Below are positions 4,711-48,103 of a stretch of 64,000 nt of DNA, in pieces. Under the pieces are notes generated by a model that worked only from the letters and a program-made list of their open reading frames with translations, made no database searches and had not been told where the DNA came from. The stretch's first letter is position 1. Every line of letters begins with the position of its first letter. The DNA comes from Methylobacterium organophilum (GTDB taxonomy: Bacteria; Pseudomonadota; Alphaproteobacteria; Rhizobiales; Beijerinckiaceae). Location of the stretch: NCBI RefSeq assembly GCF_022179465.1, contig NZ_BPQV01000002.1:496001-560000 (forward strand). Reading direction: 5' to 3'. The position numbers and the translations under genes are program-made.

Positions 4711-5622
4711 TCAGCCGGGCACCCGCGGCATCCGGAACGGCAGCATCAGCTGCACCAAAGGGTTGCGGAAGCGGGTGAGCGACAGGCTCTCGTGCACCGG
4801 CCGCACCGCCTCGCCGTCGAGGCGGGTGGCGAGCAGGGAGCGGGCGTAGAAGGGGGTGTCCTCGAAGGTGCGCAGCACCCGGGCGGCGCCGTCGTCGCTG
4901 CGGGTCGAGCGGCCCATGCGCCAGAGCCGCGTCGGCGGCAGAGCGGCGGGGAGCGGCGGGCGCCATTCCCGGCGGCGGCCGTCCCGGGCGAAGCGCAGGG
5001 ACAGGTTCTGGCCGCTGCCGTCCGTCCGGCGCACGTCGTAGAGGATGGCCGCCCCCTCGGAGAGGTCGGCCCGGCACCAGGTCCAGTCGGAGAAGGTGTC
5101 CTCCAGGCGGCCGTCGCCGTCGTTCGTGTCGAAATAGCCGGTGCCGCGCCAGCGCAGGGCCGGCTCTTCCAGCGCGACCTCGACCGCGGAGGAGGGCGCC
5201 ATCGGCCACCAGCGATGCAGGCCCGGCGCGTCGAGGGTGAAGGGGCCTTCCGTGATCCCGTGGGGGGTGAGCCGTATGGTGCCGCGGATCGGGTAGGGCA
5301 GGGGCGCGGCCCGCTCGTCGAGGCGGATCGTCAGCGCCGTGCCGTCCCATTCCATGGCGCTCGCGCCGATGGCGATCGAGGCGGCGTCGCGGGCAAGCGC
5401 CCGGGCACCGCGCTCGGTCATGGCGAAGCGGTTCGCCCGCTCGCCGTAGAGCACCACGTTCATGGCGCAATGGGCGAAGGGGTCCTGGGCGCGGTCGAGG
5501 ACGTAATAGGGCGAGAACACGCTGCCGATGAAGGCGATGACGGTCAGCCCCTGGCGCCCGTCCGCGCTCAGCGCGTCGACATACCACCAGGCATAGCCGC
5601 CCGTCGCGACCGGGCCGTCGAA
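4711..5622 (-). CDS. crtC: Carotenoid 1,2-hydratase CrtC (start unresolved)
   Basis: Adds water across the 1,2 double bond of neurosporene/lycopene-type carotenes, an early step of the spheroidene/spirilloxanthin branch. Family features visible are GGYAWWYVDALS, the segment around IAFIGSVFSPYY, HCAMNVVLYG and the C-terminal TPFYARSLL region. Homology begins in frame at about 5622 while the upstream crtD gene is still being read in another frame. No ATG, GTG or TTG precedes the homologous region nearby. The options are a non-standard start, for example CTG at 5571 overlapping the crtD stop as CTGA (about 286 aa), or a start at GTG 5520 that loses conserved sequence. Coordinates cover the homologous reading frame. 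Confidence 0.85.
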   Translation of the reverse strand, partial: FDGPVATGGYAWWYVDALSADGRQGLTVIAFIGSVFSPYYVLDRAQDPFAHCAMNVVLYGERANRFAMTERGARALARDAASIAIGASAMEWDGTALTIRLDERAAPLPYPIRGTIRLTPHGITEGPFTLDAPGLHRWWPMAPSSAVEVALEEPALRWRGTGYFDTNDGDGRLEDTFSDWTWCRADLSEGAAILYDVRRTDGSGQNLSLRFARDGRRREWRPPLPAALPPTRLWRMGRSTRSDDGAARVLRTFEDTPFYARSLLATRLDGEAVRPVHESLSLTRFRNPLVQLMLPFRMPRVPG

Positions 5623-42854: not shown

Positions 42855-43487
42855 TCAGAGCGTCGCCGGGATCGGCGCCCAGCCGCCCGCGCCGTCCGGG
42901 GCGAATTGCGGGATATGGGCGAGGCTGTGCACCAGGGCGGCGTCGGGGCCGAGCACCGGCTCCCAGTCATGGGCCTCGGTCAGCACCACGCCGATGCCGA
43001 CGACCTCCGCCCCCGCCTGGCGGGCGAGCGCCACGGAGCCCTTGAGGCTGCCGCCGCTGGCGATCACGTCGTCCACCACCACCGTGCGCTTGCCCGCGAG
43101 CAGGGGCACCGCCCGCGGGTCGAGGAGCAGGCGCTGCTCGCCATGGGAGGTGATCGAGCGGATCGGCTGGGTCAGGGCGTTGGCGAGATGGAGCTTGGGC
43201 GATTTCTGCAGCACGACGTAGTCGTTCAGGCCGAGCGCCCGGCTCACCTCGATGGCGACGGGGATGCCGAGGGTCGCCGCCCCCACCACCACCTCCGGTT
43301 CGAGGGGCGCCAGCTTCTCGGCGAGCTTCTGCCCGATATGGGCGCCGAAGCGCACGCCGAGATCGATGATCATCATCAGCGAGATCGCGAAATCCGGCTT
43401 GATCGCCACGATCGGCAGGTCGAGCGGATAGCCGGCGACGTCGACGGGCCAGGCATGGCCGGTGAAGGGGGGCTCGGCGGAGGTCAT
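42855..43487 (-). CDS. Purine-type phosphoribosyltransferase in an ECF importer operon
   Basis: At 210 aa it is a type I phosphoribosyltransferase: the PRPP motif VVVDDVIASGGSLKGSVAL follows a five-stranded core (VVVGAATLGIPVAIEVSRALG, YVVLQKSPKLHL). Such enzymes attach ribose-5-phosphate to adenine, guanine, xanthine or related bases; which base is not deducible here. Its start overlaps the stop of the T-component gene as ATGA. It is the last gene of a four-gene unit S-AA'-T-PRTase, so it probably traps the imported base as a nucleotide. Confidence 0.82.
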   Translation of the reverse strand: MTSAEPPFTGHAWPVDVAGYPLDLPIVAIKPDFAISLMMIIDLGVRFGAHIGQKLAEKLAPLEPEVVVGAATLGIPVAIEVSRALGLNDYVVLQKSPKLHLANALTQPIRSITSHGEQRLLLDPRAVPLLAGKRTVVVDDVIASGGSLKGSVALARQAGAEVVGIGVVLTEAHDWEPVLGPDAALVHSLAHIPQFAPDGAGGWAPIPATL

Positions 43488-44158
43488 GGCTGGGCGGGTT
43501 TCCGGGGCAGGCGGTCTTCGACGAGGAGCCCGACGCCGCGCCAGCTCGTGCGCTTCGCCCGGGTATCGTAGCCGGAGACGGTGAGGGAGACGGAGATGGC
43601 GTGCGCCATGCGCACCGCCTGCACCAGCAGCGGCACGCCGCGGGCCAGGGCGAAGCGCAGGCGCAGGTGGAAGGGCGCGGCGTCGATGTCGAGGCCGCGG
43701 GCGCGCTGCGCATCGGCGATCTGCTCGAATTCCCGGCGCAGCATCGGCACGATGCCGAACATCAGCGAGAGCACCAGCGTCGCCGTCGGCGGCAGCCGGG
43801 CGGCGCTCGCCGCGGCCATGATCGCGCCGGGGGTGCTGGTCTCGACCACGAAGAAGAAGGCGCCCGTCGTGGCCACCAGCCGCGCCGCCATGCGCAGCGC
43901 CGTGAGCGCCGCCTCGGGCAACGGCATCCCCTGCAGCGACAGGTTCAGGAGCCAGGAGGCCACTACCAGCACGACGAGGATCGCCGCGCCCTTCAGGTAG
44001 CCGCGCAGCCCCGGCAGCCGCAGCAGGCTCAGGACGAGGACGACGAGGGCGGCGATGGCCGCGGTCATCCAGGCCTGCGGCGCGAGCCAGGCCGCGAGCA
44101 TCACCGCGAAGGCCCCGGCGAGCTTCACGAAGAAGTTCAGGCGCAAAAGCGTGCTCAT
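43484..44158 (-). CDS. ECF transporter T component (EcfT-like)
   Basis: Membrane subunit joining ATPases to the substrate-binding S component. At 224 aa it has about five membrane helices and a cytoplasmic coupling region with the ARG motif (DAQRARGLDIDAAPF) and a second motif (SLTVSGYDTRAKRTSW). MLRREFEQIADA precedes the first motif as in EcfT. Start and stop overlap both neighbours by 4 bp, indicating one operon. Confidence 0.88.
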   Translation of the reverse strand: MSTLLRLNFFVKLAGAFAVMLAAWLAPQAWMTAAIAALVVLVLSLLRLPGLRGYLKGAAILVVLVVASWLLNLSLQGMPLPEAALTALRMAARLVATTGAFFFVVETSTPGAIMAAASAARLPPTATLVLSLMFGIVPMLRREFEQIADAQRARGLDIDAAPFHLRLRFALARGVPLLVQAVRMAHAISVSLTVSGYDTRAKRTSWRGVGLLVEDRLPRKPAQP

Positions 44159-45687
44159 GCGGCGCGCTCCAGATCCGCATAGGGCCGCGGCCAGCCGAGG
44201 CGGGCGAAGGCCGGCGCCGCCCAGGCCTCTCCGGTCGGGCCGTCGAAGCCGATCCGGCCCTCCTCCAGGATCATGACCCGGTCGGCCACGTCGTCGACGA
44301 GTTCGAGGTCGTGCGAGATCAGGATCGCCGCCCGCCCCTGCGCCCGGCCCGCGGCCAGGAAGCGCTCCAGCATGGCCCGGCCGAGGGCGTCGCGGGCGAG
44401 CAGGGGCTCGTCGAGGATGGCGACGGGGCTCTCCGCCGCCTCCAGGCAGGCGAGGCCGAGCAGCGCCTGCTCCCTGGCCGAGAGCGCGAAGGGATTGGCC
44501 TCCGTCTTCCCGGCGAGGCCGTAGGTGTCGAGGGCGGCGCGCGCCCGCGCCGCCACCGCGGGCTCCTTGAGGCGGCGCGTCTCCGCGCAGACCGCGAAGG
44601 CCGCCTCGTCGATCACGCTGAGGTTGAACAGCACCCGGCGCATGTTCTGCGGCATGTAGCCGATGCGCCGGGCCCGCCTGGCCGGCGTCCAGTCGCGGGC
44701 CTCCTCCCCGGCGATCAGGATCCGCCCCGCCGCGGCCCGGGCGAGGCCGAGCACGGTCTGGAACAGGGTGGTCTTGCCGGCACCGTTGCGGCCGACGAGG
44801 CCCAGCACCTCGCCGCGGCGAAGGCCGAAGCTGACCGCGTCGAGCACCGGCGCCCCGGTGCCGCGGCGCAGGACCGAGCGCAGGTCGAAGACGTCGAGCA
44901 GGCTCTCCCCCGGCGCGCCCTGCGCCCGGCAGGGCCGCCGGCGGGAAGGGGGCAGGATGCCGGCCTCGTCCCAGGACCCCGGGCGGGCCATCGCCTCCGC
45001 CCGGGGCAGGGCGGCGCCGAGGCGGCCCTCCGTCAGGAAGGCGATGCGGTCCATGGCCGGGGCCAGGGCGGCGGCGTCCTGGTCGGCGGCGAGGAGCGCC
45101 GGGGCCTCGGGCGCGGCCCGCAGGGCGGTCAGGATGCCGAGAAGCCGGGCGCGGGCGGCCGGGTCGAGGCCGGTGGTCGGCTCGTCGAGGGCGAGGAGCC
45201 GCGGCCGCCCAGCCAGCGCCGCCGCCAGCGCCACCATGCGCCGCTCGCCCCCGGACAGGTCGAGCACCATCCGGCCCGAGAGCGGCCAGAGGGCGAAGAG
45301 ATCCATCAGTTCGGCGACGCGGCGGCGCAGGGCCGCCCGCTCCATCCGCCGGTTCTCGAGGGGAAAGGCGATCAGGTCCTCGACGCTCAGGTTCCAGAGC
45401 TGGTCGTCGAGATTCTGGAAGACCGGGCTCACGGCGCGGAACAGGTCGGCGGCCCCCAGGCCGGAGAGCGGCGCGCCGTGCAGGCGCACCTCCCCCTGCC
45501 ACAACCGGGGCTTCACCAGCCGCGGGATCACCCCGGCCGCGGCGGCGAGCAGCACGGATTTTCCCGAGGCGCCCGCCCCGCAGACGAGGGCGGCCTCCCC
45601 CTCCCCGAGGGCGAGGCCGATCCGATCGAGCGCCGGCCGGCTCGCCCCGAAGCCGACCGTCAGGTCCTGGATGTCGAGCAACGCCAC
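44155..45687 (-). CDS. ECF transporter ATPase with two fused ABC domains
   Basis: At 510 aa it carries two ATP-binding cassettes in one chain. First: Walker A CGAGASGKSVLL, signature LSGGERRMVAL, Walker B LLALDEPTTGLDP. Second (from about residue 270): Walker A GLVGRNGAGKTTLF, a degenerate signature ALSAREQALLGL, Walker B VAILDEPLLARD. ECF systems usually have two separate A proteins, so this is a fused A-A' form. It is 45 bp downstream of the S component and overlaps the T-component start by 4 bp. Confidence 0.9.
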   Translation of the reverse strand: MALLDIQDLTVGFGASRPALDRIGLALGEGEAALVCGAGASGKSVLLAAAAGVIPRLVKPRLWQGEVRLHGAPLSGLGAADLFRAVSPVFQNLDDQLWNLSVEDLIAFPLENRRMERAALRRRVAELMDLFALWPLSGRMVLDLSGGERRMVALAAALAGRPRLLALDEPTTGLDPAARARLLGILTALRAAPEAPALLAADQDAAALAPAMDRIAFLTEGRLGAALPRAEAMARPGSWDEAGILPPSRRRPCRAQGAPGESLLDVFDLRSVLRRGTGAPVLDAVSFGLRRGEVLGLVGRNGAGKTTLFQTVLGLARAAAGRILIAGEEARDWTPARRARRIGYMPQNMRRVLFNLSVIDEAAFAVCAETRRLKEPAVAARARAALDTYGLAGKTEANPFALSAREQALLGLACLEAAESPVAILDEPLLARDALGRAMLERFLAAGRAQGRAAILISHDLELVDDVADRVMILEEGRIGFDGPTGEAWAAPAFARLGWPRPYADLERAA

Positions 45688-45732
45688 GTACCTTGAATAT
45701 CCGAACCCTGGCCGTCCTCCGGTCCGCCGCGG

Positions 45733-46305
45733 TCAGAACCGGGTGAAGCCGCCGGGATGGGCGCTCTCCAGCACCTTCGTGGCGGGCAGAACCAGGAGCG
45801 GCGTGCCCACCAGCATCGGCACCACGTCGGACAGGCCGAGATAGGTGACCGCCCACCAGAACGGGAAGATGCCGAGATAGGCGAGGCTCGCCGAGACGGC
45901 GACGACCATGACGAGGCCCACGGCGAGGCAGGTGGCGGCGAGCTTGGCGAGCCAGACCTTGTCCGTCGTCTGCTTGCCGGGATCGAACAGGAAGCCGGGC
46001 ACGAAGCCCGTCAGGCCCACCATGATGCCGTCGACGATCAGCGAATGGGCGGGGATGAAGGTGCCGGCCAGCAGCGACCAGACGATGGTGCCGAGATAGC
46101 CGGCGATGAAGCCGCTGCGCGCGCCCAGCAGCACGCCGATCAGCGGCGGCAGGAAGGCGAAGATGCGCCACTGGATGACGCCCGGCACCAGCTGGATCGG
46201 GTTGGCATAGGCCCAGAGCACGCCGGTGGCGGCGGCGCCGGCCAGCGACAGGATGAGGGGAAACAGGACATTGCCCTCGGGAGGGCTGGCGGCCGACGAT
46301 TGCAT
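45733..46305 (-). CDS. ECF transporter S component (substrate unknown)
   Basis: A 190-aa hydrophobic protein with about six membrane helices, e.g. LILSLAGAAATGVLWAYA, IFAFLPPLIGVLLGARSG and LVMVVAVSASLAYLGIF. This is the size and layout of substrate-capture proteins of energy-coupling factor importers. The loop GARSGFIAGYLGTIVWSLLA holds the small-residue surface expected for contact with the T protein. It is the first gene of the operon. ATG at 46305 has GGAG 8 bp upstream; GTG at 46314 is an alternative. Specificity cannot be read directly; operon partner and promoter point to a nitrogen-rich nucleobase-like compound. Confidence 0.8.
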   Translation of the reverse strand: MQSSAASPPEGNVLFPLILSLAGAAATGVLWAYANPIQLVPGVIQWRIFAFLPPLIGVLLGARSGFIAGYLGTIVWSLLAGTFIPAHSLIVDGIMVGLTGFVPGFLFDPGKQTTDKVWLAKLAATCLAVGLVMVVAVSASLAYLGIFPFWWAVTYLGLSDVVPMLVGTPLLVLPATKVLESAHPGGFTRF

Positions 46306-46347
46306 GGCGATCACTCCGGATGATGGTCATCCATCCGCAGGAAAGAT

Positions 46348-46364
46348 CCGCAAGCCATGTGCCA
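46348..46364 (-). promoter_or_regulatory. Sigma-54 promoter of the ECF importer-PRTase operon
   Basis: On the minus strand the sequence is TGGCACATGGCTTGCGG: -24 box TGGCAC, 5-bp spacer, -12 box TTGCG, with exact GG-N10-GC spacing. It matches the RpoN consensus almost completely. The start of transcription would be about 30 bp before the S-component start codon. No clear NtrC site was recognised further upstream. Confidence 0.75.
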
Positions 46365-46451: not shown

Positions 46452-46652
46452 ATGAAGCACCTGCAATGGCTCGGCCTGCTGCCGTTTCTCGGCATGCTCG
46501 GCGGCCCCTTCGTGTTCAACCGGGTCGAGCCTTTGGTGCTCGGCATGCCGTTCCTGCTCGCCTGGCTCGTCGGCTGCACGGTGGCGACCGCGGCGATCAT
46601 GGGGGTGATCTACCTCACCGATCCGGCCAACCGCCCGGGCTCCGACCGATGA
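46452..46652 (+). CDS. DUF3311 small membrane protein
   Basis: At 66 aa with two membrane spans (LGLLPFLGMLGGPFVFNR, PFLLAWLVGCTVATAAIMGVI) and the conserved FVFNRVEPLVLGMPFLLAW centre, it fits the DUF3311 proteins encoded before a sodium:solute symporter. The stop overlaps the symporter start as ATGA, so it is likely an accessory subunit. Confidence 0.9.
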   Translation: MKHLQWLGLLPFLGMLGGPFVFNRVEPLVLGMPFLLAWLVGCTVATAAIMGVIYLTDPANRPGSDR

Positions 46653-48103
46653 ACGCGGCGCTTCCGATCATCGGGCTGGCCGTCCTCGTGGCCCTCGGCC
46701 TCGGCCTGCTGGCCCGGGCCGGCCGCGACATGGACATGGAGCAGTGGAGCGTGGGCGGCCGCGGCTTCGGCACGGCTCTGGTCTTCCTGCTGATGGCGGG
46801 GGAGATCTACACCACCTTCGCCTTCCTCGGCGGCTCGGGCTGGGCCTACGGCAAGGGCGGCCCGACCTACTACATCCTCTGCTATCTCAGCCTGATCTAC
46901 GTGATCTCCTACTGGCTGCTGCCGCCGATCTGGCGCTACGCCAAGGCGCGCAACCTGTTCTCGCAGCCGGATTTCTTCGCCGCGAAATACGACAGCCCGG
47001 CCCTCGGCGTGCTGGTGGCCCTGGTCGGGATCGTCTCCCTCGTCCCCTACATGGTGCTGCAGCTGAAGGGCCTCGGCATCATCGTGTCCACCGCCTCCTA
47101 CGGCGCGATCCCGCCGACCGTGGCGATCTGGATCGGGGCGGCGGTCGTCACCGTCTACGTGACGGTCTCCGGCGTGCGCGGCTCCGCCTGGACGGCGGTG
47201 CTCAAGGACATGATGATCCTCGGCGTGGTCGTCTTCCTGGGGATCTACCTGCCGTATCACTACTATGGCGGCATCGGGGAGATGTTCCGGGCGATCGACC
47301 AGGCCAAGCCCGGCTTCCTCGCCCTTCCGGAGCGGGGCCAGAGCGCCTCCTGGTTCGCCTCGACGACGCTGCTCACGGCCCTCGGGGGCTGGATGTTCCC
47401 GCACACCTTCGCCTCGCTCTACACGGCGCGGGAGCCGGGGGTGTTCCGCCGCAACGCGGTGCTGCTGCCGCTCTACCAGCTGATGCTGCTGTTCGTGTTC
47501 TTCGCAGGCTTCTCCGCGGTGCTGCAGGTGCCGGGGCTGAAGGGGCCGGATGTCGACCTGTCGCTGTTCAAGATCGCCCTGGAGACCTTCCCGCCGTGGT
47601 TCGTCGGGGTGATCGGGGCGACCGGCGTGTTCACGGCCCTGGTGCCGGGCTCGATGATCCTGATCGCGGGGGCGACGCTCACGGCCAACACCCTGCTCCG
47701 CCCGCTCCTGCGCGGGCGGGCGGATGCCTCCACGGGCACCCTGGCGCGGCTCACCGCGCCGGTTCTGGCGCTGGTCTGCGTCGCCTTCACCCTGCACGGG
47801 GGCGAGACGATCGTGCAGCTGCTGCTGATGGGCTACAGCTTCGTCACCCAGCTCTTCCCGGCCCTGTTCGCGAGCCTGCTTCCCCGCAACCCCCTGACCA
47901 AGGCGGGGGCCATGGCGGGCATCCTCGCGGGTGTCGGCACCGTGGCGGTGACGACCTCGGGCGGCTGGACCATGGCGAGCCTGTTCCCGGGGCTGCCGGG
48001 GGCGATCCAGGACGTCAATATCGGCGCCGTGGCGCTGATCCTGAACGTCGCCGTCGCCCTGCTCGTCAGCCTCGCGACGCGGCGCGCCGCGACGGCCGCC
48101 TGA
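46649..48103 (+). CDS. Sodium:solute symporter (SSS family; MctP-like)
   Basis: At 484 aa it has about 13 membrane helices. Family landmarks are WSVGGRGFGTALVFLLMAGE at helix 2, FLGGSGWAYGKGGPTYYI, and YVTVSGVRGSAWTAVLKD, the SSS signature region. Relatives with a DUF3311 partner carry short monocarboxylates such as lactate, pyruvate or acetate; substrate here is inferred. It forms a two-gene operon with DUF3311, divergent from the ECF operon. Confidence 0.88.
   Translation: MNAALPIIGLAVLVALGLGLLARAGRDMDMEQWSVGGRGFGTALVFLLMAGEIYTTFAFLGGSGWAYGKGGPTYYILCYLSLIYVISYWLLPPIWRYAKARNLFSQPDFFAAKYDSPALGVLVALVGIVSLVPYMVLQLKGLGIIVSTASYGAIPPTVAIWIGAAVVTVYVTVSGVRGSAWTAVLKDMMILGVVVFLGIYLPYHYYGGIGEMFRAIDQAKPGFLALPERGQSASWFASTTLLTALGGWMFPHTFASLYTAREPGVFRRNAVLLPLYQLMLLFVFFAGFSAVLQVPGLKGPDVDLSLFKIALETFPPWFVGVIGATGVFTALVPGSMILIAGATLTANTLLRPLLRGRADASTGTLARLTAPVLALVCVAFTLHGGETIVQLLLMGYSFVTQLFPALFASLLPRNPLTKAGAMAGILAGVGTVAVTTSGGWTMASLFPGLPGAIQDVNIGAVALILNVAVALLVSLATRRAATAA

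Follow-up and report, generated by a model that had tools for sequence, protein, structure and literature searches.

Known energy-coupling factor (ECF) importers carry vitamins, metals and queuosine precursors, and to our knowledge none belongs to an NtrC/sigma-54 regulon; none appeared by title or abstract in the literature searched. Here we describe an ECF importer cassette in a stretch of 64,000 nucleotides of Methylobacterium organophilum DNA (NZ_BPQV01000002.1, positions 496,001 to 560,000; hereafter the window), in which genes for a substrate-binding S component, a fused double ATPase (AA'), a T component and a type I phosphoribosyltransferase (PRT1) follow a sigma-54 promoter box, a promoter type that often serves the response to nitrogen shortage. 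On balance, we lean slightly towards a dedicated ECF importer that brings along an intracellular trap of its own, switched through sigma-54 in the window and in most relatives examined, most likely at nitrogen shortage. Its cargo is probably a purine-like base, which would be retained in the cell as a nucleotide. An initial annotation, made from the window alone, had proposed such a nitrogen-scavenging nucleobase uptake system, and our results support it in part: its regulatory half is stronger than could be known at that time, and the substrate is one that we infer. It had also supposed that no ECF system with this combination had been described. We likewise found none with a dedicated phosphoribosyltransferase or with sigma-54 control in the open-access literature (including the accessible text of PMC3766115 and PMC11130926), subscription papers being mostly outside this scope.

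The cassette and its four genes

The four genes read leftward, are closely set and lie, together with the box, at the places given by the initial annotation. The S component (45733..46305, minus strand; 190 aa, six predicted helices), putatively the substrate-binding subunit of a dedicated ECF importer, starts at an ATG preceded by CCGGAG, with a GTG at 46314 as alternative start. It is followed after 45 bp by AA' (44155..45687, minus strand), with two ABC_tran stretches (E 7.2e-42), then by the CbiQ-family T component (43484..44158, minus strand; PF02361, E 3.9e-14, over the cut-off) and by PRT1 (42855..43487, minus strand), a purine-phosphoribosyltransferase-like protein of 210 aa (Pribosyltran, PF00156, E 1.7e-15); the ABC_tran and Pribosyltran matches likewise exceed their cut-offs. 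AA' overlaps T by 4 bp, and T overlaps PRT1 by 4 bp. The phosphoribosyltransferase had been called "fused", a loose wording for a separate gene, and its membership in the operon stands.

The order S–AA'–T–phosphoribosyltransferase is present in all 42 distinct loci of our sample, composed of the window, nine of 12 loci from a first search, five of six plasmid records, six further loci and 21 of the 22 fetched last. L088 was dropped as identical to L003, H3 was left out as coming from the same strain as H2, and the shorter stretches L002, L015–L019 and L061–L083 stand outside the locus count; flanks of about 4 kb were fetched for the last 21 loci and of up to 12 kb for the others. Protein clustering recovered S, AA' and the phosphoribosyltransferase in 42/42 loci and T in 41/42, the window T being missed on account of a longest open frame that begins far upstream. 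The enzyme is therefore kept in the operon of the relatives, as had been anticipated, with a phosphoribosyltransferase after T at every locus; in L025 this last gene is closest to a second type (PRT2). For two stand-alone PRT1 relatives (L004 and L013), the fetched flanks contain no S gene and the neighbours that were scanned are uninformative, and L014, a short chance-like match, was rejected as a relative.

The predicted fold of the S component is that of its class. The AlphaFold model (pLDDT 78.9) gave structural alignments whose top 21 entries are S components, by title or as known members of the class, at 9–18% identity. Its sequence lies below the cut-off of every curated S family that it touches (best Pfam scores 19 and 17.9 bits, cut-offs 27.8 and 26.7; NCBIfam 16 versus 60), so that it reaches the score of no curated vitamin family, in agreement with the initial annotation, and profile scans of 11 homologs gave a best E of 0.00074. 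One match to a solved structure by sequence (YfgL, E 0.01) is chance-like. The Rhizobium etli S (L020, 12001–12573) bears the name "aminotriazole resistance protein", which we treat as propagated: no paper was found that combines "aminotriazole resistance" with Rhizobium, and those in which the full name occurs deal, judging by their titles, with fungi or yeasts.

The energizing module also bears the ECF hallmarks, with two ATPase domains and a CbiQ/EcfT-type T in one system. When AA' and T were each aligned with nine homologs, T was seen to keep the first ARG/SRG motif. In all ten aligned AA' proteins (window, L003 and L005–L012), the first half lacks the H-loop histidine (EQD or DQD for HD), and in the second half the signature is degenerate (LSAREQ or similar). 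By the usual layout of ATP-binding cassette proteins, AA' presumably combines one consensus and one degenerate ATP site.

Beyond the operon, a divergent DUF3311 gene is followed by a protein resembling, by eye, a sodium-solute symporter (46452–48103, plus strand); this symporter-like protein unexpectedly gave no Pfam match at E 0.01.

Sigma-54 box and divergent LysR

The box TGGCAC-N5-TTGC, TGGCACATGGCTTGC (46350..46364, minus strand), is an exact match to the sigma-54 (-24/-12) consensus with correct GG-N10-GC spacing. Its first base lies 59 bp and its last base 45 bp before the S ATG, which confirms the near-perfect RpoN promoter seen ahead of the first gene in the initial annotation. It is the only match with at most one mismatch in the window, where shuffled windows average 2.87 such matches, and the presence of a box within 64 kb is, taken alone, not significant. 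When the upstream 200 bp were dinucleotide-shuffled 2000 times, a 10/10 box in the zone of 30–80 bp arose once (P = 0.0005), and this position, together with the recurrence of the box in relatives, rules out chance.

Loci were classed, independently of the box, by the presence or absence of a divergent LysR gene before the operon, found in 18 of the 42 and missing from 24; L100, with an unrelated LysR on the same strand (27% identity), was classed as LysR-free. In each of the 24 LysR-free loci, the first base of a GG-N10-GC box lies 45–62 bp ahead of the S start. Within the first set, a box with at least seven of ten consensus letters precedes S in 9/9 LysR-free loci versus 0/12 LysR loci, the single-locus shuffle P among the nine ranging from 0/2000 to 0.115. 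An expectation recorded before the last loci were fetched held for all 15 new LysR-free loci, with boxes scoring 8–10, and for five of the six new LysR loci; the sixth, L086, has a 7/10 match before S and is the only one of the 18 LysR loci to reach that score there. The background for a zone of that width is 6.8–8.8% at 7/10, 1.1–2.3% at 8/10 and 0.04–0.3% at 9/10. When the 24 boxes are summed into a profile, the GG of the -24 part and the TGC of the -12 part are invariant, the C, A and first T nearly so, and letters that had not been selected also emerge (G at position 6, T or A after GC). Because the box occurs in all LysR-free loci and is nearly absent before S in the LysR loci, two alternative controls drive one cassette. 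Conservation of the box, expected for relatives in general, thus holds for the 24 LysR-free loci and is not universal, the other 18 having a divergent LysR instead.

Among the first 12 LysR loci, PRT2 lies between LysR and S in ten, a SLOG protein takes this place in L025 and L030, and both occur in L026; in the six newer ones PRT2 is always present. The SLOG proteins are of the SLOG cluster4 type (L025, 6915–7544; L026, 5647–6216; L030, 6638–7231) and replace PRT2 in two of the three loci. Loci of one control type tend to group together in the S phylogeny, whose best tree contains two changes (2–3 in bootstraps), of which well-supported branches force only one. Three Rhizobium-type LysR loci also carry an exact sigma-54 box facing the LysR gene (L003, 4017–4031; L023, 6802–6816; L024, 6813–6827; all on the minus strand), which may be incidental because it is broken by an insertion in L022 and absent in L005.

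No riboswitch reached the gathering score in the window operon, where three sub-threshold matches fall inside genes, and none was found in the 17 relative loci scanned, in which only an ar14 small RNA (L098) and a tRNA (L084) matched. The ar14 alphaproteobacterial small RNA exceeds its gathering score near the L098 operon (4787–4900, plus strand).

The cassette is not typical of Methylobacterium: it occurs in one of 112 genomes of the genus, the window's own, which rules out a genus-wide core trait and makes it a scattered accessory cassette instead. Including the window genome, it was counted in 2/199 genomes of the family, 6/397 of the order and 1/385 of the class, and the family around a Hoeflea genome yielded 23/394 including that genome; searches centred on G437, G281, G538, G307 and G247 returned the centre only (1/69, 1/3, 1/103, 1/18 and 1/5). 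The genome sets of these searches overlap in part. The window S reaches 81% identity to Hoeflea-set relatives (L084) versus 62% to the sole relative in its own family, six relatives sit on plasmid records, and the carriers, soil and marine alphaproteobacteria, comprise several Rhizobium as well as Roseobacteraceae, Paracoccaceae and Geminicoccaceae. Since closer S proteins lie outside the window's own family, the genus is patchy and plasmid records are involved, we read the cassette as one that would have spread horizontally.

Proposed captured base, candidate activator and rival explanations

Judged by sequence, PRT1 is closest to purine phosphoribosyltransferases. It has the type I fold and the phosphoribosyl pyrophosphate (PRPP) motif VVVDDVIASGGS, intact in the aligned homologs, and its nearest solved relatives are Thermus thermophilus APRT2, APRT (5zgo, 6fsp) and adenine phosphopsicosyltransferase. 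With two NCBIfam models, PRK07322 and PRK06031, its scores fall short of the cut-offs (175 and 143; 113 of 143 for PRK07322), and it attains 47.6 of 164 with the XPRTase model, reaching no curated APRT or XPRT score. A purine-like substrate, as initially proposed, is supported only through the phosphoribosyltransferase. Apart from LysR, PRT2 and SLOG, no metabolic function that could name the substrate is widely recurrent in the fetched flanks of the 42 loci: ABC ATPases occur in nine and a short-chain dehydrogenase, identified by eye, in five, and most other recurrent neighbour clusters resemble antisense shadows of operon genes. A phosphoribosyltransferase always beside the importer and no widely recurrent catabolic gene suggest that a free base is captured as a nucleotide.

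The dedicated S–AA'–T module would be expected to transport a single substrate. In the mechanism that we propose, S would bind a free base of the purine type, our first guess being adenine or some other 6-substituted purine, and ATP hydrolysis by A-A', acting through T, would free it into the cell, where PRT1 would join it to PRPP to give a nucleotide unable to leak out. Phosphorylated NtrC would activate the operon via sigma-54, and control at the 18 LysR loci would pass to the divergent LysR, which might sense the base or the nucleotide made from it. Reusing a preformed purine saves four to five nitrogen atoms per nucleotide, which fits sigma-54 control and would explain both the activation by phospho-NtrC and the lack of a widely recurrent catabolic neighbour. 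A bolder version, which we advance tentatively and hold to be plausible rather than probable, is that this would be the first ECF importer for a canonical purine base, with S-AA'-T uptake and phosphoribosyltransferase capture forming one vectorial unit under sigma-54 nitrogen control, carried on a mobile cassette that swaps sigma-54/NtrC and LysR control between lineages.

The activator was sought by clustering the activator proteins with fetched loci across five LysR-free genomes. At both 50% and 45% identity one GAFTGA-bearing group was present in all five, the only activator group to be so, and we take it to be NtrC, as it has a receiver domain and a partner close by that lacks GAFTGA. The nitrogen control claimed initially rests on the box and on an NtrC group common to the five genomes, no NtrC site having been found.

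Several points weigh against the importer-and-trap reading under nitrogen control. The purine identity depends on the similarity of the phosphoribosyltransferase, which amounts to 26–34% for its four nearest structures. The system can do without sigma-54 control, since 18 of the 42 loci use LysR, 12 of which fall into one cluster of the S tree together with Rhizobium loci. Within the first set one box is weak, that of L011 (7/10, shuffle P 0.115). The LysR loci begin with PRT2 or SLOG and were also scanned before their own first gene, where L012, L086 and L091 have an 8/10 match starting at 20–120 bp and none has 9/10; three of 18 does not differ much from what chance would give in zones of this kind, and the L012 match at -58 could be a real box. 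Further 8/10 matches in L007 and L025 lie outside the first-gene zone of about 100 bp. For the activator, a second group is shared by four of the five genomes, most activators merge at a threshold of 42%, and six activator proteins without a fetched locus remained outside the clustering (five from G281, one being split over two rows, and one from G307). Upstream of the boxes, neither an NtrC site pattern, which was not a model built for alphaproteobacterial NtrC, nor a search for shared dyads gave anything beyond chance.

These activator results lend some weight to the possibility that the importer is as described and the box is served by an activator other than NtrC, the operon answering to carbon, redox or a specific ligand; sigma-54 does serve many non-nitrogen functions. 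We regard this as unlikely, though it is the strongest of the competing explanations, as NtrC is the group that all five genomes share. The four Roseobacteraceae and Paracoccaceae loci, all of the LysR type and without a box before S, are also consistent with a Rhodobacterales NtrC devoid of GAFTGA, as described in the accessible text of a Caulobacter paper in which the R. capsulatus NtrC is reported to act via sigma-70 (PMC10274813), but L012 has its 8/10 match before the first gene. Such an NtrC cannot be the whole reason for LysR control because twelve other LysR loci group with Rhizobium.

Less likely still, in our view, is that the importer carries a purine that is modified or out of the ordinary (a cytokinin, 7-deazapurine or purine analogue, for instance), whose ribotide made by PRT1 would serve inactivation or further use and not bulk nitrogen saving. 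Conservation is higher in S (62–78% identity between the window S and ten relatives, with a column mean of 82%) than in AA' (46–59% to comparable relatives), pointing to a ligand with demanding requirements. Three loci have a SLOG/LOG-like protein in the operon, LOG enzymes being known to release cytokinin bases, and several carriers are Rhizobium; yet these SLOG proteins do not show the LOG motif PGGxGT (GLSCGT in L025), and it is not obvious that the carriers among Roseobacteraceae, Paracoccaceae and Geminicoccaceae are associated with plants. For 7-deazapurine queuosine precursors, ECF systems do exist, as the accessible text on QueT/QrtT describes (PMC11130926).

That the phosphoribosyltransferase is instead a PRPP- or nucleotide-sensing accessory like PurR or PyrR, gating the transporter or its expression for some other cargo such as a vitamin precursor, we consider quite improbable, given that PRT1 has no DNA-binding domain (Pribosyltran being its only domain), an intact PRPP motif and enzymes as its nearest relatives.

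Relation to known systems

If the purine-importer reading is correct, a canonical-nucleobase ECF importer tied to nitrogen status would widen what this class of transporters is for, and soil and marine alphaproteobacteria would possess a high-affinity route for purine scavenging. That one cassette has a sigma-54 box at some loci and a divergent LysR at others also offers a clean natural example of promoter replacement.

Compared with the S components of vitamin importers (4hzu_S, RibU, ThiT, FolT, PanT and BioY), the cassette S falls below curated cut-offs at identities of 9–18%, and compared with vitamin ECF importers as a whole, the cassette is without a riboswitch where searched and has a sigma-54 box in 24 of 42 loci. 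PRT1 differs from Thermus APRT2/APRT, PRK07322 and PRK06031 in being no curated member of these families and in being tied to a transporter operon. The cassette would resemble QueT/QrtT in the ECF import of a nucleobase-like compound, in their case queuosine precursors (PMC11130926, accessible text), whereas QueT/QrtT serves tRNA modification and the cassette has a purine-phosphoribosyltransferase-like gene, the comparison with QueT being made via family libraries. Finally, it differs from NtrC/sigma-54 nitrogen-scavenging operons in that no NtrC enhancer was found upstream, and shares with them a -24/-12 box near the first gene and, in the five genomes tested, a protein of the NtrC group.

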